From an uncultured Bradyrhizobium sp. (GTDB lineage: Bacteria > Pseudomonadota > Alphaproteobacteria > Rhizobiales > Xanthobacteraceae): a stretch of 43,651 nucleotides of DNA. Both the position numbers and the translations under genes were made by a program. The stretch lies in contig NZ_CANSMR010000044.1 of NCBI RefSeq assembly GCF_947648125.1, forward strand, positions 1-43,651, written 5' to 3'. Below, piece by piece: positions 5,046 through 19,470 of this stretch (its first letter is position 1; each line of letters begins with the position of its first letter). The notes beneath the pieces are model-generated. The model saw only the letters and a list, made by a program, of their open reading frames with translations. It was not told the DNA's origin and made no database searches.

Positions 5046-5144
5046 CCCGGCCCGCGGAGCGGACGGGACGGCGCAACTGCGGGCGAGCAGCCCTGCCCGG
5101 CAGGACGAGCAGGGCCAAAGCCCTGCGCAGGACGACGGGCCGGG
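5046..5144 (-). repeat. multi-stem inverted repeat before ParB-like gene
   Basis: Outer arms CCCGGCCCG (5046-5054) and CGGGCCGGG (5136-5144) are perfectly complementary. Inside is a 7-bp hairpin GCAGGGC-CAAA-GCCCTGC (5109-5126) and further CCTGCC/GGCAGG pairing. It occupies the gap between the methylase stop and the ParB-like start, about 70 nt upstream of the latter. A pyrimidine tract at 5203-5227 (purine-rich on the coding strand) lies between it and the methylase stop. Confidence 0.6.
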
Positions 5145-5233
5145 ATTGCGCAGGCGGCGGTTGAGCGCTAGCGTCGGCGGCCCGACCGATCTGCGAGCGG
5201 GCCTTTCCTCTTTTCCTTTTTCCTATTCCGTGA

Positions 5234-8200
5234 TCAGGCGGCCGCGGCCATGTCGCCCGCGCTCTCGCCGTCCTCCGCCAATGCCTTCTCCACCTCGGCG
5301 AGCTGCCGGCGCTTCTCGGCGAGTTCGCCGGCGAAGGCGAAGTCGCCGCCGTCGCGCGACTGGTAGGAGGCAAGCCGCCTGCGCGCGTCCGCCAGCCGCT
5401 GGCTGAAGCGCTCGCGCTCGCCCTCGAAATCATCAAGCGCGTGCTCGAGACGGGCGATCGCGCCGAGTGGCGTCACCGTCACCGGCAGTTCGATTTCGTA
5501 GTCGGCGCCCGTTCGCTGCAACATCGTGGTGTAGCGGTAGCCATCGCGCCCGAAGCGTTCGCCGCTGTACTCGACGTCGAACCCGCCGATAGCGGCGATC
5601 ACGCTCTCGCCTTCCTGCTGGAGCTGGACCAGCGTCAGGATCTCCTTCAGGAGTGCGCGGCCTGCGAGCTTGCGCTCGCCGTGCGTGTCGCCCGTCACCG
5701 TCATCGTGAAGGCGTCGCCTGCGGTCGGGCGGCGGCGCGCGATGTCCTGGCCGATTTCGCCGATGCGGCGCGTCGAATATTCGATGTCGCGTTCGGCATC
5801 GCGGACCTGGCGCCGCACCGCGTGCTGATCATCGATATGGGCGGCGCGCAGGCGTTCGAGCCGTGCGATATCGGCTTCGAGGCCCGCCTTCAGCATCAAC
5901 CGCGGGTCGCCGGACGCGATCGCCTTCGCCATGGCGAACTGGTTGGCCTGGCTTTCGCCCATGTCCTCGAGCCGGCGGATCGAGGTGTCGCCGGAAAGGG
6001 CCGCGGCGATGAAGCGAGCTTTGCGCTCGTTGTTCTGCCACATCTGCGCGTCGAGCGAGCCCTCGGTCGCGTAGGCGAAGATATCGACCTCGTCGTGCTG
6101 GTTGCCCTGGCGCACGATGCGGCCCTCGCGCTGCTCGATCTGTGACGGAAGCCAGGGCACGTCGAGGTGGTGCAGGGCCTTGAGGCGGAGCTGGGCGTTG
6201 ACGCCGGTCCCCATGGTCTCGGAGGAGCCGATCAGGAAGCGGACCTTGCCGGCTCGGACGTCGCCGAACAGGCGCTGTTTTGCATCCGACTTCTTGTAAT
6301 CCTGCATGAAGGCGATTTCGGAGGCCGGCACACCCATGCGGACGAGCTCGTCGCGGATCCAGCGATACGCCGAGAAGCCGCGCGACTTCTCGACGCTGAT
6401 GGTGCCGAGATCCGAGAAGATCATCTGTGCGGCGCCGGGCAGGTCGAACGGCTTGCCGTCGGAGCGGACATAGCTGCGCTCGGACGTTTCGCTCCAGATG
6501 CGGAAGGCATTGCCGACGAGCTGGTTCAGCTTGTTGTCGGCCTCATTGTCGTTGTCCGGGTCGACCAGGCGAAGATCGATCGCCGCATGGCGGCCGTCGG
6601 TGATAACCGATAGCAGGATGTCGTCGCCCGGCTCAGGCGCGCGGTCGCGTTCCTCGATCGCCTTGATGCGCTCGCCGAGCAGCGCCTGGTAGCGCTTGAA
6701 CGCCGCCGACGGCTTCGCGGTGAGGATCTGCCGCTTGCCGGTCGAGATCGACGGCACCTTCACGTACTGCCGCAGGTCCTCGGGCATCACCACGTCCGCG
6801 AAGGATCGGAACATGGCGATCAGTTCCGGAACATTGACGAAGGTGGCGAAGCGCGTCACCGGCTTGTACTTGCCTGACGGCTGCAGTTCGAGCTCGGTCG
6901 AGACGTCGCCGAAGGTCGACGCCCAGGCGTCGAATTCATGCAGGCCACGCTCGCTGAGCGCCGCGTAGCCGAGGTAGCGCTGCACCGAGAACATCTCGCC
7001 GAGCGTGTTGGTGATCGGCGTGCCCGAGGCGAGGACGAGCGCGCGGCCTGGATTCTTGGTCTCGACGAAGCGCGACTTCACGTAGAGGTCCCAGGCGCGC
7101 TGCGAACCGTTCGGGTCGACGCCCTTCAACGTCGACATATTGGTGGCGAAGGAGAGCTTCCGAAACTCCTGCGCCTCGTCGACGATGATCTGGTCGACGC
7201 CGATCTCGGAGATGGTCAGGAGATCGTCCTTGCGCGTCGACAGCGACTCCAGCCGCTCCTGCAAGCCCTCCTTCAAGCGCTCGAGGCGCTTGCGGGAGAC
7301 GCGGTCGTCGCTCTCCACTTTCGTGAGCAGCGTCTCGTAGAGCTCCAGCTCGTCGTGGATCATCTGCTGCTCGAACGCCGACGGCACGGCGATGAAGCGG
7401 AACGCGCTGTGCGTGATAATGATCGCGTCCCAGGTCGCGGTTGCCGCGCGCGACAGGAAGCGGTGCCGCTTGGCTAAAGTGAAGTTTGTCTCGTCAGCGA
7501 CGAGGATCCGCGCGTTCGGATAGAGCGCGAGGAACTCCCGGGCCGCCTGCGCGAGGCAATGGCCGGGCACCACGAGCATCGCCTTGGCGATGAGCCCGAG
7601 CCGGCGCTGCTCCATGACGGCGGCGGCCATCGTCATGGTCTTGCCGGCGCCGACGGCATGCGCGAGATAGGTCGAGCCCGCCGAGATGATCCGCCAGATG
7701 CCGCGCTTCTGGTGCCCATAAAGAACAAAGGCGCCAGAGGCGCCGGGAAGCTTCAGGTGGGAGCCGTCGAAGGCCCGTGGCGCGATGTTGTTGAACCGGT
7801 CGTTGTAGACGCGCGCCAGCCGGTCGGTGCGGTCGGGATCGGACCAGATCCAGCGCTGGAACGCGTCCTTGATCTTCGCCAGCTTCGTCTTCGCCGCCTC
7901 GGTGTCGACGACGTTGAGGACGCGCCGCTCGCTGTCGCCGTCCTTGACCGTGTCGAAGATCTGCGGCACGCGGCTGTTGAGCGCGTCGGCGAGAAGCTCA
8001 CCCGCGTGTCGGCGGTCCGTGCCCCATTCCGACGTTCCGGCCGCCGACCATCCGAGTTGGCGTGCCTCCACGGTCCACGAGGCCAATTTGGGCATGTGGT
8101 GGATCTTGATATCGGCGTCCATCGTCTCCTTGACGAATGCGACGACGTCCGCGGCCGGAATCCACGGCGCGCCGAGACGTGCGGTGATGTCGGACGGTTT

Positions 8201-10333
8201 GAGGTCGGCGGGTTGCACGGCGGCCAGCGCGGCAATGTTGCGTTCGAGAGAGGGATCGAGCGCGGCAGCCGCCTCCGCCGTCTTCAGCTTGTCGCGAACG
8301 TGACCCGATAAATACGCGTCGGCAGTCTTCCACGAGCCGTCGGCGGGATCGCGGAAGATCGCGCTACCGAGTTCGGCAACGACGTCCTCCGTGGCGCGGT
8401 GCAGCAGTTCCGCAATGTGATCGACATCGACATGCCCGCGCTCGTTGAGGACGACGGCGAGGGCGTCCACCGCGCTGGCGATGACCGGCGCCGCCGGCGG
8501 GGCAATCACGCGCTCGGTGAAGAGGGGACCGGGCTTCGCCGTGTTCGTCTCCAGGTCATAGTCTTCGATTGAGGCCACGAGCCAGCAATCGGGATCGTCG
8601 AGGAATGGCTGGATGTTCGGCCGGCGATGCGTCTCCCGCACTTCGCCGGTATCCTCGTCTTCCGTCATGGAGACGGTCGTGAAATTGATCGGCCCGAAGT
8701 CGCGGACGAAGCTCGACCAGGCGATGCGCAGGCGGACCTGCGCGTCCTTCCACGGCCGGTCGAGCTCTTGGGCTTTCAGAACCTCCCGCACGGCGTCACG
8801 GATCGGGATCAGCTTACGAATGACGCGGACGTGCTTCTCCGGAATGCCGTCGGCGCTGCGACCCTTGCGAGCTCTCACCTCGACAGGCTCGCCGTCGAGC
8901 ACCTGCATCAGGCCGTGCGCCTTGTCGAAGAAATAGCTGCCCTCGCGAACATGCCGATCGCATGGAAGATTAACGCCAGAGGGACCGATTGCATCGTCCA
9001 GTTCGGGATCGACGACCTCGGGCTCGCCGTCATAGATCGCCGCCGGAAGGAGACCGATCGCGGCTAAAAGTGCTGCGTCGAGCTCCTGGTCCTCGCGCGG
9101 TCGGCATGTGTAAGTCTCGCCAAAGGGGCCGGAGGCGAGCGCATGCGTGCCGAGCACGAACTGCGGATGCTTCGCGAACCAGCGGTTCACGCGGATAGCG
9201 CCTTCGTCATCTGTCGCCGGGCGGACCTCGTCGAGATCGAGCCACGACAGATCGCCTTCCGCGTCGCCGATCTTGCGCTTGCGGAAGAACAGGACATCGA
9301 CGACGACGTCGGTGCCAGCGCTGGCGCTGAAGCTGCCGTCAGGCAGTCGGATCGCGGCGATCAGGTCCGCCGACTTGGCGATATGTGCGCGTGCGGCGGT
9401 GTCCGCCTTGTCCATCGTGCCCGCACTCGTGACGAAGGCGGCCAACGCCCCCGGCTTCAGCAGGTCGATCGCCCGCGCGATGAAGTAGTCATGCAGGCGC
9501 AGACCCATGGATCGATACGCACGATCCGAGCGCACAGTCCGATCGGAGAACGGCGGATTGCCGATCGCGAGGTCGAAGTTCGCTGGCAATTCGGTGCGTG
9601 CAAAATCGCCAGCGATGATGCGCGCCCGTGGCTGCAATAGCCGCACGATGCGCGCCGTCACGGGATCAAGTTCGATTCCCGTGACATGGGAGATCGCACG
9701 CAGCCCCTCAGGCATCAGCGCCGGAAACAGACCCGTCCCAATACCGGGCTCAAGCACACGGCCGCCGCGCCAGCCGAATCTGCGAAGGCCTGTCCAGATC
9801 GCGCGGATAATGAACTCCGGCGTAAAGTGTGCATACTGGGTGCAGCGGGCGAGCGAGGCGTGGTCGAGATCGTCGACAGCGCCCTGCAGATCCTCCCCGA
9901 TCGCCTCCCAACCCTTGCGAAAATCCGTCTCGCGCGGCCGCCGGAACACGAAGTTGGCAAGTTCGGACGCGCCGAATCCCGTGAAACAAATGAGCTTCGC
10001 TTGCTCCTCGGCGGTCGCAGGCCGCGCATCAGCGTTGACGGTCGCGGCAAGGCGAATGGCCGCGATGTTGTCGCGGGCGCGGTCCTTCCAGCCCTTCGCC
10101 AGGGTGCGGTCGCCGGCGAGATGAAAGTTCGTTCCGCGTTCACGGCACGTGGCTGCCGTCGTGCGGCCAACCGCCGCGACGGCAGCAGCCGCGGGCGCGA
10201 TTGCCGACGAGTCGGGATCGTCGGTGTCCGGGCCCGCCGCGCTGTCGGCGAAGGCGGTCACGCCGAGGCCGAGACCGGACGACAGTGCGGTGCTGCCGAA
10301 CAGATCGAGAGTGAAGGGATCATCTTGCGCCAT
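5234..10333 (-). CDS. giant DNA methylase-SNF2 helicase, 1699 aa
   Basis: An N-terminal adenine-N6 methyltransferase domain has the SAM-binding motif LEPGIGTG (about residue 192) and the catalytic motif NPPF (about 259). A C-terminal superfamily 2 helicase has a Walker A-like motif VGAGKTMTM (about 891), a DEAQ box (about 1049), SGTPITNT (motif III type) and motif VI around QREGRIVRQG (about 1404). Coiled-coil-like charged sequence ends the protein. This architecture resembles plasmid and phage methylase-helicases, including P1 DarB, which protects transferred DNA from restriction; a similar role here is inference. The start at 10333 has AAGGAG. It is the largest gene of the window, cytoplasmic, and lies between a 64-aa protein and the ParB-like gene. 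Confidence 0.9.
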   Translation of the reverse strand: MAQDDPFTLDLFGSTALSSGLGLGVTAFADSAAGPDTDDPDSSAIAPAAAAVAAVGRTTAATCRERGTNFHLAGDRTLAKGWKDRARDNIAAIRLAATVNADARPATAEEQAKLICFTGFGASELANFVFRRPRETDFRKGWEAIGEDLQGAVDDLDHASLARCTQYAHFTPEFIIRAIWTGLRRFGWRGGRVLEPGIGTGLFPALMPEGLRAISHVTGIELDPVTARIVRLLQPRARIIAGDFARTELPANFDLAIGNPPFSDRTVRSDRAYRSMGLRLHDYFIARAIDLLKPGALAAFVTSAGTMDKADTAARAHIAKSADLIAAIRLPDGSFSASAGTDVVVDVLFFRKRKIGDAEGDLSWLDLDEVRPATDDEGAIRVNRWFAKHPQFVLGTHALASGPFGETYTCRPREDQELDAALLAAIGLLPAAIYDGEPEVVDPELDDAIGPSGVNLPCDRHVREGSYFFDKAHGLMQVLDGEPVEVRARKGRSADGIPEKHVRVIRKLIPIRDAVREVLKAQELDRPWKDAQVRLRIAWSSFVRDFGPINFTTVSMTEDEDTGEVRETHRRPNIQPFLDDPDCWLVASIEDYDLETNTAKPGPLFTERVIAPPAAPVIASAVDALAVVLNERGHVDVDHIAELLHRATEDVVAELGSAIFRDPADGSWKTADAYLSGHVRDKLKTAEAAAALDPSLERNIAALAAVQPADLKPSDITARLGAPWIPAADVVAFVKETMDADIKIHHMPKLASWTVEARQLGWSAAGTSEWGTDRRHAGELLADALNSRVPQIFDTVKDGDSERRVLNVVDTEAAKTKLAKIKDAFQRWIWSDPDRTDRLARVYNDRFNNIAPRAFDGSHLKLPGASGAFVLYGHQKRGIWRIISAGSTYLAHAVGAGKTMTMAAAVMEQRRLGLIAKAMLVVPGHCLAQAAREFLALYPNARILVADETNFTLAKRHRFLSRAATATWDAIIITHSAFRFIAVPSAFEQQMIHDELELYETLLTKVESDDRVSRKRLERLKEGLQERLESLSTRKDDLLTISEIGVDQIIVDEAQEFRKLSFATNMSTLKGVDPNGSQRAWDLYVKSRFVETKNPGRALVLASGTPITNTLGEMFSVQRYLGYAALSERGLHEFDAWASTFGDVSTELELQPSGKYKPVTRFATFVNVPELIAMFRSFADVVMPEDLRQYVKVPSISTGKRQILTAKPSAAFKRYQALLGERIKAIEERDRAPEPGDDILLSVITDGRHAAIDLRLVDPDNDNEADNKLNQLVGNAFRIWSETSERSYVRSDGKPFDLPGAAQMIFSDLGTISVEKSRGFSAYRWIRDELVRMGVPASEIAFMQDYKKSDAKQRLFGDVRAGKVRFLIGSSETMGTGVNAQLRLKALHHLDVPWLPSQIEQREGRIVRQGNQHDEVDIFAYATEGSLDAQMWQNNERKARFIAAALSGDTSIRRLEDMGESQANQFAMAKAIASGDPRLMLKAGLEADIARLERLRAAHIDDQHAVRRQVRDAERDIEYSTRRIGEIGQDIARRRPTAGDAFTMTVTGDTHGERKLAGRALLKEILTLVQLQQEGESVIAAIGGFDVEYSGERFGRDGYRYTTMLQRTGADYEIELPVTVTPLGAIARLEHALDDFEGERERFSQRLADARRRLASYQSRDGGDFAFAGELAEKRRQLAEVEKALAEDGESAGDMAAAA

Positions 10334-10368
10334 TGGAATCTCCTTGTGATGAAGGCACGCGCCATCGC

Positions 10369-10390
10369 CCCGCCGCTCGTGCGCGGCGGG
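10369..10390 (-). repeat. 8-bp stem hairpin before methylase gene
   Basis: Perfect CCCGCCGC / GCGGCGGG stem with a 6-base loop, 36 nt upstream of the methylase-helicase start. No T-run follows, so it is more likely an mRNA structure than a terminator. Confidence 0.6.
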
Positions 10391-10434
10391 ATGCGAGACG
10401 TGCCGGGATGGACGGGACAGGCCCTGATGGGGTC

Positions 10435-10629
10435 TCAGAGCCGGAAGGTGCGGACGAGCTCCTGGTGCCTTTGATGGCAGCCGAGCATTTCGCGGTAGAA
10501 GCGCTTGCGCGCTTCTCTCATCGCTGAGCCACGGCGATGTTTCCTGGCGATGCGGGTGTTGGCGGCCCGCACGACATCGCGCCACGACGCAAAGACATGG
10601 ACGCGAAGGCGATCATAGGTGCCTTGCAT
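10435..10629 (-). CDS. small basic protein, 64 aa
   Basis: Very basic (about one third Arg/Lys/His), probably all helical. It contains WRDVVRAANTRIARKHRR followed by EARKRFYREML. The start at 10629 has a GAAGGAGC site; its reading frame overlaps nothing else on this strand, and it begins 16 bp after the DUF1419 stop. Composition suggests nucleic-acid binding or a partner of the neighbouring methylase-helicase, but there is no recognised domain. Proteins of this size are common beside DUF1419 genes on rhizobial plasmids, from memory. Confidence 0.65.
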   Translation of the reverse strand: MQGTYDRLRVHVFASWRDVVRAANTRIARKHRRGSAMREARKRFYREMLGCHQRHQELVRTFRL

Positions 10630-10645
10630 GGGACCGCTCCTTCGC

Positions 10646-11248
10646 TCAGGCCGCGAGCGGCGGAAGGTGGCGGAGCTGCACGGGCAGCTTGGCGGCGATC
10701 TCGTCATCCGTGAGATCATCGAGGAGCTTCAGCACCGTCCCGACGCTTCCGCAAAACACCAGCACCGTGCGCTTGCCCTGCAACGCCGCGGGCCAGCGCG
10801 GACCGGCGTAGCCGCGATAGTCATCATGGGTGCTCGACCAGATGTGATCGAGGCGCTCGTCGCGCGTCATGGCGCGGATCGGCCGGGACTCGCGCTCGAC
10901 GATCGCCTGCTTCATGCGCTCGGGCGAGCCACGATCGGAAAGATCGCAATAGCCGTGGAAGAAGCGCTGGCGACCATCGATCCAGAGCGAGAAGAAGATG
11001 CTGGTGACATTGCCCGTCATGAATTCGCGCATCGCGAACATGTCGGCGCGCATCCACAGCGGCGGCAGAATCTCGAGCATATAGTCATGCTCGGGCTCAG
11101 CGATCTCGAACCATTCGCCGGCGAACAGATGACCCGCGTCGCCCTCGGCGTACGCCGGATCGCCGCGATGGCGGTTGAACATGCGATACATTTCCGGACG
11201 CGTCGCGACGCCTTCGAAGATCTTGCGAATGGTGAATGAGGTGTGCAT
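10646..11248 (-). CDS. DUF1419 domain protein, 200 aa
   Basis: Matches, from memory, the DUF1419 family of rhizobial plasmids: conserved stretches include RKIFEGVATRPEMYRMF, LFAGEWFEI, HDYMLEILPPLW, MFAMREFMTG, FFHGYCDL and RDERLDHIWSSTHDDYRGY. The function is unknown and there is no export signal. The C-terminal part (about residues 150-200) adds a region with VLVFCGSV and an acidic helix. The start at 11248 has an AAGGAG site placed right after a 7-bp hairpin (11260-11279), with the first copy of the intergenic repeat family further upstream. Confidence 0.82.
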   Translation of the reverse strand: MHTSFTIRKIFEGVATRPEMYRMFNRHRGDPAYAEGDAGHLFAGEWFEIAEPEHDYMLEILPPLWMRADMFAMREFMTGNVTSIFFSLWIDGRQRFFHGYCDLSDRGSPERMKQAIVERESRPIRAMTRDERLDHIWSSTHDDYRGYAGPRWPAALQGKRTVLVFCGSVGTVLKLLDDLTDDEIAAKLPVQLRHLPPLAA

Positions 11249-11259
11249 CGGCGGCTCCT

Positions 11260-11279
11260 TTCAGCCTGGCCGGGCTGAA
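11260..11279 (-). promoter_or_regulatory. hairpin abutting the DUF1419 gene ribosome binding site
   Basis: TTCAGCC / GGCTGAA 7-bp stem with a 6-base loop. On the coding (minus) strand its 3' arm runs directly into the AAGGAG ribosome binding site, 12 nt before the start, so folding could change ribosome access. Confidence 0.55.
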
Positions 11280-11333
11280 GCGCGAGCGATCCGCCTGATC
11301 TCCTCATCACTTCAGTCCTTCGTCACACCTCCT

Positions 11334-11420
11334 CGGCGGCCGCCTCTCCGGTCCGGCAGGTCAAGGGCCGCGGCACGCGGGCGAAGCTTTACCCTTGACG
11401 CGCCGGCCGGGCATGCGGCA
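11334..11420 (-). repeat. intergenic structured repeat, copy 1
   Basis: First of three homologous ~87-bp copies. It starts with GGCGGCCGCCTCTCCGGT, shared exactly with copy 3. The arms at 11348-11367 and 11392-11410 pair along ~19 positions with one bulge and two mismatches, centred on TCAAGGG / CCCTTGA. The loop contains GCCGCGG and GCGGGCGAAGC, and the 3' flank is GCATGCGGCA. It lies between the DUF5983 gene stop and the DUF1419 gene start (86 nt upstream of the latter). Confidence 0.85.
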
Positions 11421-11538
11421 GCGGGGTTTCCATTTTCTTCTTTGCAACTCCCCTCTGGTTTTCCGCTGTTCTGCGCCGCCCCGCGCCCATCGGCCGCGTC
11501 TGCATGCGCGTCTTGCGCAAACAACGTCATGGGCCGCA

Positions 11539-11829
11539 TCACCAATCGTGGCTCGGCAGGGCCTCAACGAGATCGCCATCACAATCGAAGAGGATGTAGT
11601 CGAAGCCATGCTTGCGTCCCCATGTCATGACGCCGAAGAGGTCGTCAGGGATCGGGTCCGGCCCCTGGTCGTTCTCTTCATGGGCATAGACGAACCACCC
11701 GTAGTCGCCGTAGGGCCCGCCGACGCACGGCCACTCTTTGGCCGGCGTCGCGTCGAGGGTGTGCGCCGTCAGCTCGGTGAGGTGCGCGGTTGAGACGACG
11801 ACGAAATTGCGGATATCGGGATTGCTCAT
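11539..11829 (-). CDS. DUF5983-family protein, 96 aa
   Basis: Matches the small family I know as DUF5983 (function unknown): STAHLTELTAHTLD near the N-terminus, WPCVGGPYGDYGWFVYAHE in the middle, and IPDDLFGVMTWGRKHGF with FDCDGD near the end. It is acidic and soluble with no export signal. The start at 11829 is chosen over the longer frame to 11958 because of a TGAGGAG site and conservation beginning there. It lies 31 bp downstream of the DUF6915-like gene in the same train. Confidence 0.82.
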   Translation of the reverse strand: MSNPDIRNFVVVSTAHLTELTAHTLDATPAKEWPCVGGPYGDYGWFVYAHEENDQGPDPIPDDLFGVMTWGRKHGFDYILFDCDGDLVEALPSHDW

Positions 11830-11860
11830 GGTTCTTCTCCTCAAGGATTGACGATGGGTT

Positions 11861-12523
11861 TCAGTCGAGACCGAGCTTCTGCGGCGAAGTCGCCTGAAGC
11901 ATCCAGCGGGCGCCTTTGATCCGACGCAGCACATCGATGGCTGCCGGAACGCGGCCAAGCACCCTCTGCACGTGGCGCTCTGCCACCACGCGCGTCGGCA
12001 CGCACCGGTCGCCGCCGATATCGAGCGCGGGTCCGAAGCGGCTCTCGGCCTCGAAGATGCCGAAGCTGTGATGGCGAAACAGCAGGTGCTCGGCGCCGGC
12101 GCACCAGCTCTGCGTCGCTAGGAACCAGTCGTGCAGAGCGCGATAATGCCCGGGCTCGCCGCCAAATCGCTGCGCGCTGGACACCGCAAGTTCGGTGGCT
12201 TCGCACGTCTCCTGTGGAAGCCAATCCGGCGCATCGAGGTCGATCAGCCAGTCGCACGCCTGAGAGATGATGCCGCAATCCTCGTCGAGGTGCTGAAGTC
12301 CGACTTGCCGAAGATCGACCTTGGCGCCGTCGCTGTTCTGGATCGTGGGCCCAAAGATGGCGAATGCTTCCTTGACGCCCTCGAGGTGATGCCGCAGCGC
12401 GCGATGCGTGAATCGGCACTGGATCGATTTCGTCGCATCGAACCAGGCATGGCAGGGATAGTAGTCCTGCCATTGTCCGCCAAAGCGACGTGCGGACGAG
12501 CGTGCGTGATCGTAGGGGTGCAT
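11861..12523 (-). CDS. DUF6915-like protein with internal duplication, 220 aa
   Basis: The first ~100 residues fit a small plasmid family I know as DUF6915 (HPYDHARSS, WFDATKS, RHHLEGV, FGPTI). The second half repeats the same pattern: SSARRFGG and SSAQRFGG, HAWFDATKS and HDWFLATQS, RALRHH and LLFRHH, FGPTI and FGPAL. So the protein is two diverged copies of one domain. The start at 12523 has an AAGGAGG site; the longer frame to 12742 overlaps the PcfJ-like gene and is rejected. The conserved His, Trp and Asp residues suggest a possible metal or active site, unproven. Confidence 0.82.
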   Translation of the reverse strand: MHPYDHARSSARRFGGQWQDYYPCHAWFDATKSIQCRFTHRALRHHLEGVKEAFAIFGPTIQNSDGAKVDLRQVGLQHLDEDCGIISQACDWLIDLDAPDWLPQETCEATELAVSSAQRFGGEPGHYRALHDWFLATQSWCAGAEHLLFRHHSFGIFEAESRFGPALDIGGDRCVPTRVVAERHVQRVLGRVPAAIDVLRRIKGARWMLQATSPQKLGLD

Positions 12524-12561
12524 GATTGCCTCCTTGGAGTTGTGGGTGTGAAGGGACGGGG

Positions 12562-14355
12562 TCAGCGCCGGGACGCAGAGGGCTTCCCGAGCAGCGCCGC
12601 GAAGGCCCGGTCGATGGTGTCGACCAGACCGCTCTCGACGCACCAGAGATCGAAGCTTGACGGCGCCGGACGCGGCAGGAGCGGCCGGTAGAGCGGATAG
12701 GCTTCGCGCGCGTGATCCAATGGCAGCGCGTCGCTGCGCCACGCATAATCGCCGCGCTTGTGCATGCGCCGGCGATAGCGGGCCAGCGTCACGTCGTTCA
12801 TGGCATGGGCCTGCGAACGCACATCGCGCAGGAAGTCGCGAAGCACATCATGCAGATCATCGGCCGGTCGGGTATTCCGGATCGCCTTGAATTGACCGAC
12901 CTTCAGCGCCGGTGCCTCGATCGGCCCTTCGAGCGCGACCTCGACCGTCGCGGCGCGGCGGCCGTCACGGCGCACCGACAGGATTTGCGTATCGCCGCGA
13001 CGGCAGACATCATAATAGCCGCCGACGCAATGCTGCATCTCGTTGCCCTCGATCACCAGATCGCTGGCCGAGGTCAGCGCAACAACGTCGTAGCGGCCAT
13101 CGCACGATCGCCAGGGCGCACAGAGCGCCGGCCAGCCGGGTCGCTCCGCCGTATGCTCGTGGCGCAGCGCCGAGAGCGACGCGGCGCGGCGATGCCAGAG
13201 CGCGGCCGCTTCCTGGAACGCCTTCGGCTTGCGCGTCCCGACGATGGCCTGATGCAGACCGAGAAGGAATGCGCGATAGTCCATGCTGCCGCGTCGACTT
13301 GGTGGAAAATCGAGTTCGTTCACGAATTGTGCGATGACAGTGTCGCGCGAAACGGCGGCCGGTCTGCGATTGGTAACGAGCGGACGCAGGATGTCGTCCT
13401 TCAGCGCGAGGATGGCGTCTTGAACGCCCGCTTCCTTTTCCTCGAGATAGTCGGGACGGATCAGATGCGTGCGAGGCGATCCGAGCCACGGCGATTTTTG
13501 CCACACGGCCGGTCGTTCCGGCTGGCCGGCGCCCGGCCATTGATGGCGCGGGACCGAATACGTCTTGAGGCGCCGTGCTGCGACCGCGAAATCGTCCCAT
13601 TGCTCGATCGATGCACGCATGTCGCGCGCGCCGCGAAACGCGCGCAGCTCGGCCTCCGTCAATCCAAGATGTCCAGCAAGCGCCGGCGTCAGTGGTTCGC
13701 CGCGATCGATGATCTGCGTGATGGCCGGCTCTCGCAACACGGAGACGAGGCTCCCGAAGAGGCGCCCAGCTTGCGCGCGTCGGATCAGGATGTCTGGCCG
13801 GGATGGATCGCCGGAGAGCTGCGGCACGAGCAACCACTCGGCCTGCACAGTGAGGCCGCGCGACAAGAAAGCAGCCTGGGGCGCATCGCGCTCCAGCACA
13901 GCGCGGAGGTGCTGCGTGCAGAGCTCCTCGACGCGCTTGTGAACGCGCGTTAGCGCAGTGCCGACACTTTCGGATATCCGCGTGAGTTCGACTTCGCACG
14001 CGCCGCCGTTGAGAAGGTCCGCCATCAGAAGGGCGTAACCCCAATCGTCAAGGCGGGCCGAAATGTCGAGCTGCGTCTCGCCACGCGCCCGGCGCGCGAC
14101 GTCGCTCACGACACAGGCGATATGATTCAGCAACTCCGCCGCGGGACCTTGCGCCGATGGCGTCGGATCAACGTGAAGCTCGGCTTCGAGGCAGTTGTCA
14201 TACACTTCCGCGTCGAGCTGGGCCTGTGATAGCGCCATCAGCGCGACCAACCCCGCGACACGAGTATCCGCCCTACGGCGAGCGAGGGCTTCGCAGCAAC
14301 CGACAAGCGTCTCGAACGCGGAAGTTTCGAGCATGGACCAGGTGGAGGCGTTCAT
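12562..14355 (-). CDS. PcfJ-like protein, 597 aa
   Basis: The C-terminal half contains the PcfJ signature: DLVIEGNEMQHCVGGYYD at about residues 433-450, followed by ILSVRRDGRRAATVEV and VGQFKAIRN. The N-terminal ~250 residues are helical and Ala/Leu-rich, with no recognised domain. PcfJ was named from the enterococcal pCF10 conjugation region, but its biochemical role is not settled. The start overlaps the upstream stop as ATGA, so the two are coupled. The length fits alphaproteobacterial PcfJ-domain proteins. The family call is secure; the function is not. Confidence 0.82.
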   Translation of the reverse strand: MNASTWSMLETSAFETLVGCCEALARRRADTRVAGLVALMALSQAQLDAEVYDNCLEAELHVDPTPSAQGPAAELLNHIACVVSDVARRARGETQLDISARLDDWGYALLMADLLNGGACEVELTRISESVGTALTRVHKRVEELCTQHLRAVLERDAPQAAFLSRGLTVQAEWLLVPQLSGDPSRPDILIRRAQAGRLFGSLVSVLREPAITQIIDRGEPLTPALAGHLGLTEAELRAFRGARDMRASIEQWDDFAVAARRLKTYSVPRHQWPGAGQPERPAVWQKSPWLGSPRTHLIRPDYLEEKEAGVQDAILALKDDILRPLVTNRRPAAVSRDTVIAQFVNELDFPPSRRGSMDYRAFLLGLHQAIVGTRKPKAFQEAAALWHRRAASLSALRHEHTAERPGWPALCAPWRSCDGRYDVVALTSASDLVIEGNEMQHCVGGYYDVCRRGDTQILSVRRDGRRAATVEVALEGPIEAPALKVGQFKAIRNTRPADDLHDVLRDFLRDVRSQAHAMNDVTLARYRRRMHKRGDYAWRSDALPLDHAREAYPLYRPLLPRPAPSSFDLWCVESGLVDTIDRAFAALLGKPSASRR

Positions 14356-14783
14356 GGCCGCACCTCGCCGTTCTCAGCGTCATCATCGTCGGCGTCGAAA
14401 TCCTCGTCCTCGAATTCCTCCTCGTCGTTTTCGTCGCCATAGTCGCCCTCATCGCGAAACGTCATGTCGCATTCGAAGCGAAGATCCTCATCCTCCTCGA
14501 AGGGCCGAATGGTGACGGTGCCGTAGCCACCCTCGTTGTTGACCCAATCGCCCCCGGGAAGATCGGCGACGAGATCGTCAAGGAGCCACGAGAGCATGCG
14601 TGGCCGGCCTGAGCCATCGACGCCGGTCGGTATCTCAGGGAGCTTGTCGAGCAAGCGGCCATCGACATGCTGAATCCGCTCCAGCGTCGAATCACCCGAG
14701 TCGCCGCCACCGTCGAGCGCGTATCCCAATTCCTGGATGCCGATCGCGCGCAGGAGCGCGATCGCGATTTCCTTTCTGTCCAT
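14352..14783 (-). CDS. DUF6878-like acidic protein, 143 aa
   Basis: The N-terminal ~100 residues resemble the small plasmid family DUF6878 (ALDGGGDSGDSTLERI, then DWVNNEGGYGTVTI). The last ~45 residues are almost entirely Asp and Glu, a DNA-mimic-like composition, although it is too short to conclude that. The start at 14783 has an AAGGG/AAGG site and sits 19 nt after a hairpin (14802-14818), with copy 2 of the intergenic repeat just upstream. It is coupled to the PcfJ-like gene by ATGA. Confidence 0.72.
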   Translation of the reverse strand: MDRKEIAIALLRAIGIQELGYALDGGGDSGDSTLERIQHVDGRLLDKLPEIPTGVDGSGRPRMLSWLLDDLVADLPGGDWVNNEGGYGTVTIRPFEEDEDLRFECDMTFRDEGDYGDENDEEEFEDEDFDADDDDAENGEVRP

Positions 14784-14801
14784 TGCCTTGCCCTTTTCTG
14801 A

Positions 14802-14818
14802 AGATGTTGCAGACATCT
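14802..14818 (-). promoter_or_regulatory. hairpin 19 nt before a start, conserved with 16199-16215
   Basis: AGATGT / ACATCT 6-bp perfect stem with a 5-base loop (CTGCA on the coding strand). The equivalent hairpin at 16199-16215 keeps the TGCA loop but has a GGGTGT / ACACCC stem, so two base pairs changed together. Confidence 0.65.
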
Positions 14819-14820
14819 CC

Positions 14821-14908
14821 AGGCGGGCCGCATCACAGGTCCGGCGGGTCAGGGGCTGCGGAACGCAGGCGAAGCGGACCCTTGACGCGCCGGACGGACA
14901 TGCGGCAA
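14821..14908 (-). repeat. intergenic structured repeat, copy 2
   Basis: Second copy of the family. The arms at 14839-14855 and 14879-14895 pair along ~17 positions, with one G-T and one mismatch. It shares the GCGAAGC loop segment, CCCTTGACGCGCCG and the ATGCGGCA flank with copy 1. It lies between the DUF4326 gene stop and the start of the DUF6878-like gene, beginning 38 nt upstream of that start. Confidence 0.85.
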
Positions 14909-14948
14909 CGGTTCATCCGCCCTATTTCTCCTTCCGCGCCTCCTCCGC

Positions 14949-15257
14949 TCACGCGGCTGTATTGACTGCGCGCCACCATGCGATCCGCGCGTCGCGCGTC
15001 GCATTTGCGAGCCGAAGCAGCAAATCGCCGTGGCACGCCCGCGGCGCGCAGAAGCAGACGAGGTCGCGGCCACGCAGCTCGTCGAGCCCGCGCAACAGAT
15101 CGTGTTGATCTGCAAGCCAGCGTTCGTATTTCGCAATCACGGCCGATCGGCTGCCGTCGGGGCCGATCCGAAACGGATTGCCCCATTTCGAGCCGCGACC
15201 GATATAGACGGCGCCTGCCGGAATCCCCGCGTGATGTTTGTTGAGAACCCTGCACAT
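14949..15257 (-). CDS. DUF4326 domain protein, 102 aa
   Basis: Matches DUF4326: VYIGRGSKWGNPF near the N-terminus and LVCFCAPRACHGDLLL near the C-terminus, the two hallmark stretches of that family. The Cys-x-Cys...Cys-His cluster suggests metal binding. The biochemical function is unknown. The start at 15257 has a GGAGC site; longer frames to 15728 run through the structured intergenic region and are rejected. Found widely on phages and plasmids, consistent with an accessory element. Confidence 0.85.
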   Translation of the reverse strand: MCRVLNKHHAGIPAGAVYIGRGSKWGNPFRIGPDGSRSAVIAKYERWLADQHDLLRGLDELRGRDLVCFCAPRACHGDLLLRLANATRDARIAWWRAVNTAA

Positions 15258-15297
15258 TGTCCGTCGCTCCTGACCGCGTTGCGTTGGATGCGCGGCC

Positions 15298-15378
15298 GGA
15301 CGCAGCCAGGCCTTGCCTGTCACGCATCGGGTTCGATGCGGGAACGGCTTGTCCGTTGACTGGCAAGGCGCTGCGTCC
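15298..15378 (-). repeat. four-stem structured intergenic element
   Basis: Nested complementarity: outer stem GGACGCAG (15298-15305) / CTGCGTCC (15371-15378), second stem GCCTTGCC (15310-15317) / GGCAAGGC (15362-15369), and two inner hairpins GCATCG-GGTT-CGATGC (15324-15339) and AACGG-CTTGT-CCGTT (15343-15357). All stems are perfect. It begins 41 nt upstream of the DUF4326 start and is unrelated in sequence to the repeat copies on either side. Confidence 0.75.
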
Positions 15379-15489
15379 AGCGAATGCCCGACGCTTGGCG
15401 GCCAGGACTCGATGGCTCGGCAGGGATTCAAACAATTCACCGGCAAGACGCGACGGACTGCCGTCAGCAGCAACGCGTCGACACGGAGC

Positions 15490-15771
15490 TCACGATTCCG
15501 CCTGGTGCTGAGGCGCGTGGATCCGATCGTCGTCGAATACGACGTCCTCGACGACCGGTTTTCTGCCATCGACCGTGACCCGGTCGATGAAGGCGATGAC
15601 ACCTTCGCGACGTTCGTCGGTATCGATGTGCTCGGGCTGCGCCATCGACGCCATTGCGTTCTTGGCGGCGACCTTGGCTTTGTCGATCGCGTCCGCGTCG
15701 GACGAAGCCTCGATGGTGAGGCTGTCATAAGCCCGGAGCCAAAAGCCGATCTTCACGACATATTCAGTCAT
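15490..15771 (-). CDS. hypothetical small protein, 93 aa
   Basis: Begins MTEYVVKIGFWLRAYDSLTIEA, a beta-rich start typical of small plasmid proteins, followed by a helix rich in Ala and an acidic C-terminal part. The start at 15771 overlaps the upstream stop as ATGA, so it is translationally coupled. There is no export signal or recognised domain. About 230 bp of non-coding sequence with the four-stem element follows its stop. Confidence 0.72.
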   Translation of the reverse strand: MTEYVVKIGFWLRAYDSLTIEASSDADAIDKAKVAAKNAMASMAQPEHIDTDERREGVIAFIDRVTVDGRKPVVEDVVFDDDRIHAPQHQAES

Positions 15772-16181
15772 GACGCATCTCCCGTCGTGTCGGGATCGCG
15801 GGCGCCGGCGAGGATCGCCTCGGCCTTGGCGATGGCAGGCTGGGCGCGCTCCCGCCAGAAGTTCTGGTCCGGCGATCCCTCATTCGGATTCGCCAGGACT
15901 TTGACCAGGCCGAGCAGCACCTCGAAGTGCTGCGCGAGCCGCTGATGCGCTTCGGTATAGTGTGACGGAATGGCATGGGAGTCGCCGCTATAAGCTGCGT
16001 CCGAGCCAGACCAGATTCCCGTCACGTAGGTTTCGCCGCCGGATTCGTAGTCTCGCTTTTCCTGGCTCCAATCATCATCCTCGATGGCGAGACGGCAGGC
16101 TTGCGCGAGTGTGTTCGCCTCGTAGGTCTTGTGACGATAGACCGGCAGGCGATAAGTGGTTTCGATGGTCCACAGAGGCAT
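15768..16181 (-). CDS. hypothetical conserved protein, 137 aa
   Basis: Starts MPLWTIETTYRLPVYRHKTYEA, followed by ACRLAIEDDDW, a pattern I recognise from small plasmid proteins of Rhizobiales but cannot name. The middle (YVTGIWSGSDAAYSG) looks beta-rich, and the C-terminal half is helical with many Ala and Glu. The ATG at 16181 has GGAAGGA at good spacing, just after a hairpin conserved with that of the DUF6878-like gene, and copy 3 of the intergenic repeat lies 38 nt upstream. Confidence 0.75.
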   Translation of the reverse strand: MPLWTIETTYRLPVYRHKTYEANTLAQACRLAIEDDDWSQEKRDYESGGETYVTGIWSGSDAAYSGDSHAIPSHYTEAHQRLAQHFEVLLGLVKVLANPNEGSPDQNFWRERAQPAIAKAEAILAGARDPDTTGDAS

Positions 16182-16198
16182 GGTCGATCCTTCCCTTT

Positions 16199-16215
16199 GG
16201 GTGTTGCAAACACCC
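16199..16215 (-). promoter_or_regulatory. hairpin 18 nt before a start, conserved with 14802-14818
   Basis: GGGTGT / ACACCC perfect 6-bp stem with a 5-base loop (TTGCA on the coding strand). Position relative to the start, loop sequence and neighbouring repeat copy all match the hairpin at 14802-14818, while the stem differs by paired changes. Confidence 0.65.
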
Positions 16216-16218
16216 TTC

Positions 16219-16303
16219 GGGCGGCCGCCTCTCCGGTTGGGCGGGTCAAGGGCCGCGGTACGCGGGCGAAGCTTCCCTTGACGCGCCGACCGGCAGGCGG
16301 CAT
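16219..16303 (-). repeat. intergenic structured repeat, copy 3
   Basis: Third copy, closest to copy 1. The arms at 16233-16252 and 16275-16293 pair along ~19 positions, with TCAAGGG / CCCTTGA conserved. Where copy 1 has a C-G pair near the outer end, this copy has T-A, a compensatory change. The loop again has GCCGCGG and GCGGGCGAAGC. It lies between the Toprim gene stop and the next start. Confidence 0.85.
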
Positions 16304-16307
16304 CGAC

Positions 16308-17234
16308 CTACGCGCTGGCCCGGACCAGTTCGTTGTCCAGGCGGGCAACCAGATTCTTCAGGTCTTCATTCCAGTCGCCCGTACGCGGCTGCGATCGCGC
16401 ATAGAATGCTGACGCCTCTGCCGCGATGCCGCGAATACGATCGGCATAGACGTCGCCTTGCCGATTGTTGTCCGTCGCGGCGACAAGCCGGACGTCAGCG
16501 CGCCTCGCCAAACTGCGGATCGCCAGCTCCGTCGCCGGCGACCAGCCGCCGCCGGTGCTCACATATAGCGTATCGGATCGCAGAACCTCGATCGCAGCGA
16601 GGCTCAGGGCATCGATCGCGGCCTCGGTGACGCAAATCCGCGGGGCGTCAATCGGACCGAGACGGAAGAGCTGTTTGGTCCCGTTGGTGGCGAAGCCACG
16701 CCAGCGCGGACCACGTTCTTCCCAGCCGATGATATGGCCGGCGAGGTCATCGTGCGCAGCCCACATGCTGCCCTGCGGCCCCTCCCGCAGGCAGCCTTGA
16801 GCTACGGCTGCGGCGATCACGCTGTCAGGGATACAGCGCTCGCCGGTGAGATACCGCCAGGTGGCGGAGCCCGGTCTGGGCAGCGAGCGGCGGGACCAAC
16901 GATTGGCGATAGAGGCTATCGGCGTCGGTTTCGGGGCTTGCGTCCAGGCCGGCGCTGTCGGGATGAACCCAACCAAGTCAGCGACATGATCGCAAGCCGC
17001 GGGGAATCCCTTGGCGCCAAGATGCTCAGCGAGATCGACGACATCGCCTTTGGCCGACGACAACGGATCAAACCAGCCGCGACCGTCGTGTATCACGATG
17101 ATGATATCGGCCCCACGCCGATATTTGAGCGCGCGTCGCGTGCTTTCCTTGAGGTCGATCTTCCAACCATCTTTCTCGAGCACGGCTGCGCACGCCACCT
17201 TGGTGCGCAGCTCTTCAATATCTTTCTTCTCCAT
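16308..17234 (-). CDS. DUF3991/Toprim protein, 308 aa
   Basis: The N-terminal ~100 residues match the DUF3991-type region found before Toprim domains on plasmids (LEKDGWKIDLKES, RGADIIIVIHDGRGWFDP, KGDVVDLAEHL). The C-terminal Toprim-like domain has ICVTEAAIDALSLAAI with the conserved Glu and ATDNNRQGDVYADRI, where the usual Asp-x-Asp reads Asp-Asn-Asn. Such proteins are thought to act in DNA primer synthesis or processing, but activity here is unproven because of that substitution. The start at 17234 has a GGAG close to the ATG (2-base gap); the frame to 17456 is not supported. DnaB-like helicase lies upstream in the same train. Confidence 0.83.
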   Translation of the reverse strand: MEKKDIEELRTKVACAAVLEKDGWKIDLKESTRRALKYRRGADIIIVIHDGRGWFDPLSSAKGDVVDLAEHLGAKGFPAACDHVADLVGFIPTAPAWTQAPKPTPIASIANRWSRRSLPRPGSATWRYLTGERCIPDSVIAAAVAQGCLREGPQGSMWAAHDDLAGHIIGWEERGPRWRGFATNGTKQLFRLGPIDAPRICVTEAAIDALSLAAIEVLRSDTLYVSTGGGWSPATELAIRSLARRADVRLVAATDNNRQGDVYADRIRGIAAEASAFYARSQPRTGDWNEDLKNLVARLDNELVRASA

Positions 17235-17328
17235 ATCTCCACACCGGGCGCGCTTGCCGCCACCCGGTCCTTTCTTCGGTTGGTTCTTCTGGTTCCGCAG
17301 GCCCGGAACGGGACCGACCGGCCGCGAA

Positions 17329-17414
17329 GCCTGCCGGAGGCAAGGGCGCGATGACAAGCGGTCCAACATGTTGGATTCCAGCCGCGGCGCAGCTTCCCTT
17401 GCCTGCGGCAAGGC
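17329..17414 (-). repeat. diverged structured repeat, possible copy 4
   Basis: The arms GCCTGCCGGAGGCAAGGG (17329-17346) and 17396-17414 pair with one bulge and one mismatch. Inside is a perfect 12-bp palindrome CCAACATGTTGG (17363-17374). The segment GCCGCGG...GCAGCTTCCCTTG parallels GCCGCGG...GAAGCTTCCCTTG of copy 3, so this may be a diverged member. It lies 95 nt upstream of the Toprim start. Confidence 0.55.
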
Positions 17415-17437
17415 GCCAGCGGCACCGGTCACCCGGC

Positions 17438-17614
17438 TCAATGAGCCGGGGACCATGGGTCGTATTCGTGAATGACGGTCACTTCATCCTGCTCGAGCTC
17501 CGCCGTCGGCATCACGCCGAACGCGCCGTCAACTTCGAACAGCGTCACCGGCACCATGAGCGTGCGGGCGAGATCGAGGGCGTGATTCTGAGCGAGGGTG
17601 AGATTCTGCGACAT
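17438..17614 (-). CDS. small hypothetical protein, 58 aa
   Basis: A short gene read directly from the sequence: it begins MSQNLTLAQNHALDLART, continues VPVTLFEVDGAFGVMPTAEL and ends EYDPWSPAH. The ATG at 17614 has a GGGAG site at good spacing. The amphipathic N-terminal helix followed by an alternating hydrophobic beta stretch looks like a folded small protein and not noise. It is acidic with no export signal. A GCGGGGA/TCCCCGC hairpin lies 21 nt upstream. Function unknown. Confidence 0.65.
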   Translation of the reverse strand: MSQNLTLAQNHALDLARTLMVPVTLFEVDGAFGVMPTAELEQDEVTVIHEYDPWSPAH

Positions 17615-17979: not shown

Positions 17980-19470
17980 CTATTCGGATCGCTGCGGCAA
18001 CTGGTTCTGGTTCGCCAGATCGAAGAACCGGGTGAACTCGCCTTGAAACGTCATCGCCACTGTCCCGGTCGGGCCGTGGCGCTGCTTCGCGATGATCACC
18101 TCGGCTTTGCCGCGCACATCCCGCATCTCAGATTTCCAGGCGAAATGCTCGTCGGTGCCGGCCCTCGGCTCTTTGTTCTTGAGATAGTATTCTTCGCGAT
18201 AGACAAACATCACGACGTCGGCGTCCTGCTCAATTGAGCCGGATTCCCGAAGATCGGAGAGTTGGGGGCGTTTTTCGTCGCGGTTTTCGACACCGCGTGA
18301 GAGCTGCGACAGCGCGATGACCGGGACGTTGAGTTCCTTGGCCAGCGCTTTCAGCCCCGTCGTAATCTCGGTGATCTCCTGCACACGGTTCTGTGCCGCG
18401 CGCGGGGATTTGCCCTGCATGAGTTGAATGTAATCCACGATGACGAGGTGGAGACCTCGCTGTCGCTTCAAGCGGCGCGCGCGTGCCGCGAGCTGCGCAA
18501 TCGAGATCGCGCCGGTCTGATCGATGAAGAGCGGCAGCCGGCGCATTTTTTGGCGGTGGTCGAGGAGCCGGCTGAATTCGGTCTCGCCGATTTCGCCGCG
18601 CCTGATGTTGGAGGAGGAAATCTCGGCCTGCTCGGCGAGCACCCGCGTCGCAAGCTGCTCCGACGACATCTCCAGGGAAAAGAAAGCGACAATGCCGCCG
18701 GCGCCGGGCTGCAGCGCGCCGTCGACCTGTCGTGTCGAATCATAGGCGCTTGCGACATTGAATGCGATGTTGGTGGCGAGGGCGGTTTTTCCCATGCCGG
18801 GGCGACCGGCGATCACAATAAGATCGGTCGGTTGAAGACCACCGAGCCTGGCGTCCAGGTCCTTTAGCCCGGTTGCCAGCCCGGAGAGCTTGCCATCGGA
18901 TTCATAAGCTTGCGCCGCTCTGTCGATGGCGCTGTCGAGCGCGGTTTCGAACGTCTCGAAGCCTCCGCCGTACCGGCCGGTTTCCGCGATCTCATAGAGA
19001 AGCTGTTCGGCATGCTGAATCTGCTCCCGCGGAGCGCTATCGACTGCCGCTTCGAATGCGCTGCTGAGCATGTCTTCGGCGACCTTGATCAATTCACGTC
19101 GCACGGCGAGATCGTAGATCGTCCGGCCGTAGTCGGGCGCATTGATGACCGTCGTCGCTTCCGCAGCCAGACGAGCAAGGTACTGGGCAACTGAGAAGCC
19201 TACAACGTCGATCGTCGCGGGAAGAAAAGCCTTCAGCGTAATCGGATTGGCGATCCGGTTGGAGCGGATCAACTCGCCCATGACTTCGAAGATGTGGCCG
19301 TGCAGGGGCTCGAAGAAATGGTTCGCCTTCAGAAAGTCGACAACCCGGTAATAGGCGTCATTGTTGATGAGGATGGCGCCAAGCAAAGCCTGCTCGGCCT
19401 CAATGTTTTGCGGCAGCTCGCGGTATGTCGAGCCGGCCGATGCTGCGAGTTTGAATGCGGCTTCCGCCAT
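17980..19470 (-). CDS. dnaB: replicative DNA helicase, DnaB family, 496 aa
   Basis: Full-length DnaB: N-terminal domain (LPQNIEAEQALLGAIL, then INAPDYGRTIYDLAVRREL), then a RecA-type motor with Walker A GRPGMGKTALA (about residue 219), FSLEMSSEQL, Walker B-type IVDYIQLMQG (about residue 342), and ALSQLSRGVENR with RDEKRPQLSDLRESG. It unwinds DNA at the replication fork as a hexamer. It is probably element-encoded, since it heads the plasmid gene train rather than lying beside rplI as is common for chromosomal copies. The start at 19470 has only a weak ribosome binding site. It faces the SRAP gene across a 300-bp divergent gap. Confidence 0.95.
   Translation of the reverse strand: MAEAAFKLAASAGSTYRELPQNIEAEQALLGAILINNDAYYRVVDFLKANHFFEPLHGHIFEVMGELIRSNRIANPITLKAFLPATIDVVGFSVAQYLARLAAEATTVINAPDYGRTIYDLAVRRELIKVAEDMLSSAFEAAVDSAPREQIQHAEQLLYEIAETGRYGGGFETFETALDSAIDRAAQAYESDGKLSGLATGLKDLDARLGGLQPTDLIVIAGRPGMGKTALATNIAFNVASAYDSTRQVDGALQPGAGGIVAFFSLEMSSEQLATRVLAEQAEISSSNIRRGEIGETEFSRLLDHRQKMRRLPLFIDQTGAISIAQLAARARRLKRQRGLHLVIVDYIQLMQGKSPRAAQNRVQEITEITTGLKALAKELNVPVIALSQLSRGVENRDEKRPQLSDLRESGSIEQDADVVMFVYREEYYLKNKEPRAGTDEHFAWKSEMRDVRGKAEVIIAKQRHGPTGTVAMTFQGEFTRFFDLANQNQLPQRSE

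Follow-up and report, generated by a model that had tools for sequence, protein, structure and literature searches.

We analysed a family of intergenic inverted repeats in a 43,651-nt stretch of DNA from an uncultured Bradyrhizobium sp. (contig NZ_CANSMR010000044.1; the whole stretch is hereafter called the window). The repeats and their plasmid relatives constitute a sequence-constrained predicted hairpin that stands at fixed places before leading-region genes of conjugative plasmids and is polarised towards the predicted transferred strand (T-strand). The fold is kept on the strand opposite to the mRNA sense. On balance, we think that these elements are probably initiation sites on single-stranded DNA (ssDNA) for early leading-region expression, similar in action to Frpo of plasmid F; that transcription would start at them is our inference.

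Covariation and strand polarity of the hairpin

The initial annotation had proposed from three copies that the fold itself is selected, since changes in one arm are matched in the other. Three copies are thin evidence, and larger sets confirmed the proposal. Among 17 copies, 8 of 26 pairs showed changes on both sides, giving 34 such cells as against 13.3 in shuffled arms (0/500 shuffles as high); when the partner was slid by 1-3 columns, only 0-5 both-side cells were left. The set was then enlarged to 89 distinct copies (out of 109 copies from 91 sources), where 395 of the 445 cells of five variable stem pairs were paired, the shuffled mean being 305.

The non-canonical cells of these five pairs revealed which strand folds. 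Read on the hairpin strand there were 36 G.T and 5 A.C cells, and the same cells on the mRNA-sense strand are 36 A.C and 5 G.U. Arm shuffles gave means of 27.4 G.T and 14.9 A.C, and the observed difference of 31 was reached in 0/2000 of them (shuffle maximum 24), all shuffle counts coming from related sequences. The computed ssDNA energy was lower on the T-strand in 88/89 distinct copies. Mean z was -3.57 on the T-strand versus -2.68 on the sense strand for types A and B (lower on T in 40 of 50 copies sampled from the 89), -2.67 versus -1.69 for type C (44 of 50, sampled from 57), and -0.44 versus -0.17 for random segments (31/50). The polarity is a tendency across many relatives. Since it is on the opposite strand that pairing is preserved, the earlier suggestion of a cis-acting RNA within the following gene's transcript is not supported; the wobble cells and the GNA loops (N, any base) described below also speak against it.

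Elements in the window and their predicted folds

Coordinates are those of the whole window, in which the genes lie on the minus strand and the hairpin strand is the plus strand. The three copies first described, with a common inverted repeat, loop and flanks, were found in place and could be aligned. A covariance model (R1), for which 17 copies were taken from ten plasmid stretches and the window and oriented as the window's plus strand, gave the limits of the elements listed first.

11338..11421, plus strand: copy 1, type A; R1 101 bits, being among the copies from which R1 was built; upstream of the DUF1419 gene
14826..14908, plus strand: copy 2, type B; R1 90.3 bits; upstream of a small gene (14352-14783) with no assigned function
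16223..16303, plus strand: copy 3, type B; R1 89.2 bits; upstream of a small gene (15768-16181) with no assigned function
17320..17425, plus strand: copy 4, type C; R1 35.4 bits, E 6.1e-6; upstream of the DUF3991/Toprim gene
11381..11387, plus strand: GCGAAGC mini-hairpin with a GNA loop in copy 1, read from the sequence
11421..11475, minus strand: tract upstream of copy 1, purine-rich in the sense direction (purine fraction 0.73) and pyrimidine-rich on the T-strand
5066..5165, plus strand: second hairpin type, upstream of the ParB_N gene; 47 distinct relatives

Copies 1-3 are about 84 nt long, and they were exactly the copies matched when copy 2 was used as blastn query against the 8.57-Mb assembly. 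Copy 4 is diverged, with a first mini-hairpin longer than in the other copies, and had escaped the initial annotation, as had a G.G mismatch in the stem, the folding strand and the hairpin before the ParB gene. The spacing of 38 nt to the next gene start, claimed for two elements, holds for copy 2 (14821 to 14783) and copy 3 (16219 to 16181); copy 1 lies 86 nt before its start at 11248.

Folded in silico as ssDNA, copies 1-3 form a long interrupted stem with two small hairpins on top. Folds were compared with 200 dinucleotide shuffles per copy, using DNA parameters and the R1 limits, and each of copies 1-3 beat 200/200 shuffles. The z values for copies 1, 2 and 3 were -3.97, -6.12 and -5.92 on the plus strand and -3.78, -5.00 and -5.37 on the minus strand. 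Copy 4 gave -3.65 (plus) and -2.21 (minus), and the hairpin at 5066-5165 only -2.03 (plus) and -1.77 (minus). With RNA parameters and wider limits, copies 2 and 3 remained clear of their shuffles; z for copy 1 was -1.80 (plus) and -1.99 (minus), with 11 and 10 of 200 shuffles equally good.

Conserved architecture and promoter-like features

The centre of the main stem, GTCAAGGG/CCCTTGAC, is palindromic and near-invariant, and two positions outward of it the G.G mismatch was present in 85/89 distinct copies. In 88 of 93 distinct cores an outer clamp, GCCGC/GCGGC, was present at a distance of 19-20 nt, and the base that follows the clamp on the 3' side of the hairpin was an unpaired A in all 88 clamp-bearing cores; both counts were repeated without fixing the block, as the earlier collecting pattern had contained a fixed TGCCGC. 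The second mini-hairpin reads GC-GNA-GC on the hairpin strand in 87/93 distinct cores (GAA 69, GCA 14, GGA 3, GTA 1), as counted by a pattern that demands GCnnnGC, and the six non-GNA cores comprise two with a clamp nearby and four without. In type C, the second loop was GNA on the T-strand in 52 of 57 distinct copies. GNA and GNNA loops closed by at least two G-C pairs are described as forming extra-stable DNA mini-hairpins (PMC4686876).

A purine-rich sense tract (fraction of at least 0.7) precedes the type-A-like copies in 69/77 distinct cases and type B copies in 3/12; such a fraction was reached by 0.5% of 2000 random 55-mers. In the window the fraction was 0.71 before copy 2 and 0.55 before copy 3.

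The hairpin also contains CTTGAC, which is the -35 half of the Sinorhizobium meliloti sigma70 consensus, given as CTTGAC-N17-CTATAT (PMC2873474). Measured in copies 1 and 2, the end of the clamp lies 19 nt past TTGACG, and the invariant A comes next. Near that distance one would expect the upstream edge of an open complex. The spacing between clamp and -35-like box would thus fit, as geometry and not as proof. A sigma70 promoter acting in the duplex was rejected, as the scan of 10600-17700 stayed at chance level (1 site found versus 0.9 expected).

Distribution and gene context

A lack of further copies, or arms that diverge without compensation, would have spoken against the family, and both were looked for. 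Blastn with copy 3 matched 427 of the 72,556 plasmid records searched, and the arms were compensated; the view of a multi-copy structured element of a plasmid family is borne out by many homologues with compensatory changes. Among the 427 records, 315 were typed conjugative and 344 came from Agrobacterium, Rhizobium, Sinorhizobium and Bradyrhizobium; Ti and symbiotic plasmids are among the carriers. In an order-level sample R1 matched 20/397 genomes, ten of them above 70 bits, the range of the plasmid type. In a class-level sample, 3/385 genomes matched at E 1e-4, strongly only in the window's own genome. Type C had 57 distinct relatives.

The genes concerned in the window, all on the minus strand, are as follows.

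10646..11248, minus strand: DUF1419 gene, first behind copy 1 (PF07215, E 4.6e-58)
5234..10585, minus strand: DarB-like antirestriction methylase/helicase of 1783 aa (phrog_10089, 1646.7 bits)
16308..17234, minus strand: DUF3991/Toprim gene behind copy 4 (PF13154, PF13155)
3293..4975, minus strand: ParB_N gene behind the second hairpin type (PF02195; NF010406, 958.6 bits)
17980..19470, minus strand: DnaB-like helicase at the far end of the block (PF03796, PF00772)

The Eco57I and SNF2/helicase domains of the 1783-aa protein fell slightly under the Pfam cut-offs, and the DUF3991/Toprim start was set to 17234 from the annotated starts of relatives. A coding explanation was rejected, as the elements sit in gaps and the overlapping open reading frames are mechanical (a 382-aa frame over copy 4 is shortened by the start at 17234). 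Phage origin was likewise rejected, with just one weak phage record.

The association with DUF1419 is close. A protein search returned 388 relatives; the 80 best of them were retained as loci, and in 76 of these 80 a core ended at most 220 nt upstream of DUF1419 by the strict pattern. R1 detected the element in three further loci (L130, L131 and L134), bringing the total to 79/80; the sole locus without it, L136, has a match covering just residues 34-196. In several relatives the gene order is DUF3991/Toprim, element, DUF1419, often DUF3085, a methylase/helicase of about 1700 aa, ParB_N, and then ArdC-type and DUF736 genes, ArdC lying further along the leading region. In pTiC58 and p42a, traG-traD-traC follow the ArdC-type/DUF736 genes.

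Two side observations were made at these loci. Around position 20000 of the pSymA locus of S. meliloti Rm41 (L009), half an element stands before an apparently truncated DUF1419 gene, perhaps a decayed leading region. The core recurs in an additional hairpin about 3.7-4 kb behind the DUF1419 start in the loci from Rhizobium subbaraonis, Ciceribacter and Rhizobium rhizogenes (L130 at 10660, L133 at 10963 and L134 at 10955).

Relation to the transferred strand

The orientation relative to the origin of transfer (oriT) was predicted in three plasmids. In pTiC58 and p42a (MOBQ), the interval between traC and traA contains, on the minus strand of the loci, a nic-like motif preceded by an inverted repeat; the cleavage position is assumed from RSF1010-type sites. 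In CP069301 (MOBP), a TATCCTG motif accompanied by an inverted repeat precedes mobC and likewise occupies the strand opposite to the leading genes. In all three, the folding strand is the predicted transferred strand and the genes are directed towards oriT. The T-strand of the window was deduced from gene order, since its own oriT was not found in the assembly.

Other hairpins of the leading region

The ParB-side hairpin (5066-5165) differs from the main element. Its set of 47 distinct relatives was filtered from 58 sequences mixing true and false matches; the T-strand folded better in 46/47, with a mean z of -2.17 versus -0.85 on the sense strand (lower on T in 41/47). A small hairpin before the ArdC-type gene had a GNA loop on the T-strand in 6/7 loci (L004, L005, L007, L008, L010 and L015).

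Two smaller features were noted beside the elements. The DUF1419 leader (window 11249-11333, minus sense) is conserved, and its length hardly varies (89-95 nt in ten loci). In several copies, as judged by eye, CTTCAGCC has two alternative candidate partners, GGGCTGAAG upstream and GGCTGAAAGGAG at the ribosome site, which would make a possible RNA switch. A second small hairpin, seen by eye, stands between each type B element and its gene (at about 16199-16215 and 14801-14819), the sense arms GGGTGT/ACACCC and AGATGT/ACATCT showing compensatory differences. Apart from these, a fluoride riboswitch (RF01734, 55.8 bits) was found at 42123-42182 on the plus strand, close to the contig end.

Proposed role of the elements

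In the role that we favour, the plasmid would enter the recipient as ssDNA, and the T-strand hairpin would offer a short double-stranded platform carrying the CTTGAC box. Host RNA polymerase, or possibly a primase, would start RNA out of the 5' base of the stem and continue through the downstream genes, copying the T-strand. Leading genes such as that of the DarB-like antirestriction protein could then be expressed ahead of second-strand synthesis, and upon conversion to double-stranded DNA the site would cease to be a hairpin.

A wider proposal is put forward tentatively, as possible and not as probable. Conjugative plasmids of Hyphomicrobiales, Ti and symbiotic plasmids included, might possess separate, non-homologous ssDNA initiation hairpins of at least three sequence families (before DUF3991/DUF1419, ParB and ArdC genes). 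These would combine GNA mini-hairpins and a -35-like box with a stem ending near the expected upstream edge of the bubble, an invariant unpaired A would replace the -10 box, and a host factor would recognise them. Recognition by a host factor is proposed since the same core is also spread in chromosomes.

Several results weigh against initiation of early expression from these sites. A TATAAT-like box with at least four matches (A2 and T6 among them), 15-19 nt from the -35-like hexamer, was found in 0/83 scored copies (83 of the 89 distinct copies, the 6 lacking TTGAC having been dropped); the best -10 candidate had 3/6 matches in one copy, and shuffled flanks give more by chance. Neither oriT nor a relaxase of the window was found in its assembly, where the ArdC and MOBP relaxase proteins of CP069301 also had no match. 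No transcript, start-site or zygotic-induction data for the elements were found. Copy 1 by itself is near-symmetric (-30.6 versus -30.4 on the two strands), and the shuffle counts, coming from relatives that are not independent of each other, are not probabilities. Only 27 of the 55 distinct loop regions have GNA as loop 1 (14 of the 55 were read by eye: 13 GNA and one without the first mini-hairpin); three have GNNA, and three have GNA on the other strand. At the ArdC side, the L011 loop is AAC, an exception to GNA. When 23 leading-region gaps were scanned crudely, the best local fold was on the T-strand in 15 of them and on the sense strand in 8, so that not every leading-region hairpin is polarised. 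Finally, one genus (g63) carries the same core, G.G mismatch included, as a repeat dispersed in its chromosomes. Among the chromosomal copies listed from g63 and other genomes, 10/23 lie at most 60 nt from the 3' end of a crude open reading frame call, a placement that a pure promoter reading leaves unexplained. This chromosomal spread suggests a host factor or a history like that of repetitive extragenic palindromic (REP) sequences, and it lowers our confidence.

If early expression from the T-strand is true, expression on incoming ssDNA would also be built into Ti and symbiotic plasmids, via a different structure; the elements would serve as a marker for leading regions and allow a test of antirestriction genes acting before restriction. 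Wobble polarity together with DNA-specific loops would be a signature for telling ssDNA-acting elements from RNA.

Alternative explanations

Priming of the second strand, at a single-strand initiation (ssi) site, is an explanation that we regard as rather unlikely, though to be taken seriously. Here the T-strand hairpin would recruit host DnaG/PriA, or the plasmid Toprim protein with DnaB, and its relation to gene order would be only indirect. The DnaB-like helicase and the DUF3991/Toprim gene beside the window elements, the pyrimidine-rich T-strand tract flanking type A copies and the lack of a -10 box would all suit priming, and Frpo of F was itself named for transcription as well as primer synthesis (title of Masai and Arai 1997). 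Priming does not need the tight coupling to gene starts and direction seen at 79/80 DUF1419 loci, and no DnaB was annotated in the stretches of pTiC58 and p42a that were read. Primase activity of the Toprim protein is a guess, because PHROG and NCBIfam searches returned no match for it and the PDB search no significant one.

A dispersed palindrome of the REP type or the miniature inverted-repeat transposable element (MITE) type, repeatedly captured by plasmids and without a plasmid-specific job, is improbable. The REP-like mobile element raised in the initial annotation is still partly supported by the dispersal of the same core as an intergenic repeat in some chromosomes; the type associated with REP-associated tyrosine transposases (RAYT) is little supported, and the plasmid positions are fixed. 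By pattern, 1-16 core copies with G.G per genome occurred in 7/8 sampled g63 genomes (G064, G100, G159, G183, G206, G226 and G245), and looser TCAAGGG/CCCTTGA palindromes reached up to 63 in another genome. The mismatch was counted in 22 of 42 chromosomal sequences, at least nine of the 42 being second readings of a repeat already counted, and the eight C.C cases represent these repeats as seen on the opposite strand; most g63 copies keep G.G, and those copies of G048 and G395 that were read have fully paired stems at that position. Against capture of a jobless repeat stand the fixed plasmid position relative to DUF1419, DUF3991 and the small genes across many genera, the conservation also of the outer clamp, the unpaired A and the purine tract, and the finding of only three blastn copies in the 8.57-Mb genome. 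A transposase domain, Y1_Tnp, was absent from 4/4 searched g63 genomes and from G395, G077, G366 and G326. G048, with the most related palindromes, had one match with two stops inside, and the window's genome had two on other contigs, one with stops.

Structured RNA, as the leader of the downstream mRNA or as antisense RNA from the other strand, appears very improbable, strong as the covariation is and though the conserved DUF1419 leader might fold too. Wobble polarity and the weaker sense folds contradict the sense-mRNA form, and the sense-strand cis RNA was rejected on these grounds. The antisense form needs a transcript against the upstream gene, and the sole sigma70-like site on that strand in 10600-17700 is at 12720, inside a gene. 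A known RNA family was rejected as well, as the elements had no Rfam match at the gathering threshold or up to E 10.

Least probable of all is a double-stranded palindromic operator through which a regulator would co-control the leading operons: its attraction lies in the palindromic, near-invariant centre and in the rise of the pLPU83a DUF3991 gene (+2.76 log2) together with tra/trb in a Rhizobium favelukesii rcgR mutant with traR up (PMC13055273), but an operator needs no single-strand fold, GNA loops or strand polarity, and DUF1419 is not in the table of changed genes consulted in that paper. For early expression from the T-strand, the pLPU83a rise, seen with de-repressed conjugation, is neutral to mildly supportive.

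Comparison with known systems

No published description of the element was found in the open-access literature, preprints being outside the scope, and the parts of PMC2267715 and PMC2680597 consulted contain nothing on it. Promoters acting in ssDNA are documented for enterobacterial plasmids (PMC9849209). Searches in the Nature 2024 survey began from known Frpo/ssi sequences or the -35/-10 consensus, and the stems Rhizob- and Agrobacter- are absent from its main text.

The elements were compared with REP/RAYT sequences, which they resemble as short GC-rich imperfect palindromes with a related core dispersed in some chromosomes, and from which they differ in their fixed syntenic plasmid sites and in the occurrence of Y1_Tnp (none in the four searched g63 genomes, one in G048).

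A Frpo homologue was rejected, since the F regions showed no sequence match. With the three copies as blastn queries, the two F repeat regions taken for Frpo1/Frpo2 (a 90% identical repeat) gave a best E of 0.21; R1 on the F stretch found nothing inside these regions and at best 15.8 bits outside them. The strongest folds of the two regions favour the T-strand and contain one GAA triloop hairpin on it; the three-way junction with two mini-hairpins is absent from the F folds inspected. Frpo is described as rebuilding both -35 and -10 boxes (PMC9849209), whereas here only the -35-like CTTGAC is present.

Of the traits of Frpo/ssi sites, a leading-region location, genes directed towards oriT and the T-strand as their predicted template were found in pTiC58, p42a and CP069301, and a stable hairpin on the transferred strand in the computed folds; both boxes in the stem and sequence homology (compared with the F Frpo regions only) were not found. 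The mode of action may match that of an ssDNA promoter or an ssi site, yet these two Frpo features are missing.

Stable one-strand hairpins that act in ssDNA are known from the ssi sites of G4, PAS and RSF1010. Our elements are likened to these by description, and they differ in being coupled to gene starts. The leading region of ColIb-P9, an enterobacterial plasmid likened here by description, has Frpo-like ssi repeats ahead of leading genes (cited in PMC9849209). With Frpo1/Frpo2 of F, the elements share the arrangement of several copies before leading genes directed towards oriT, the hairpin on the transferred strand and the anti-defence cargo (PMC9849209, PMC11541004).

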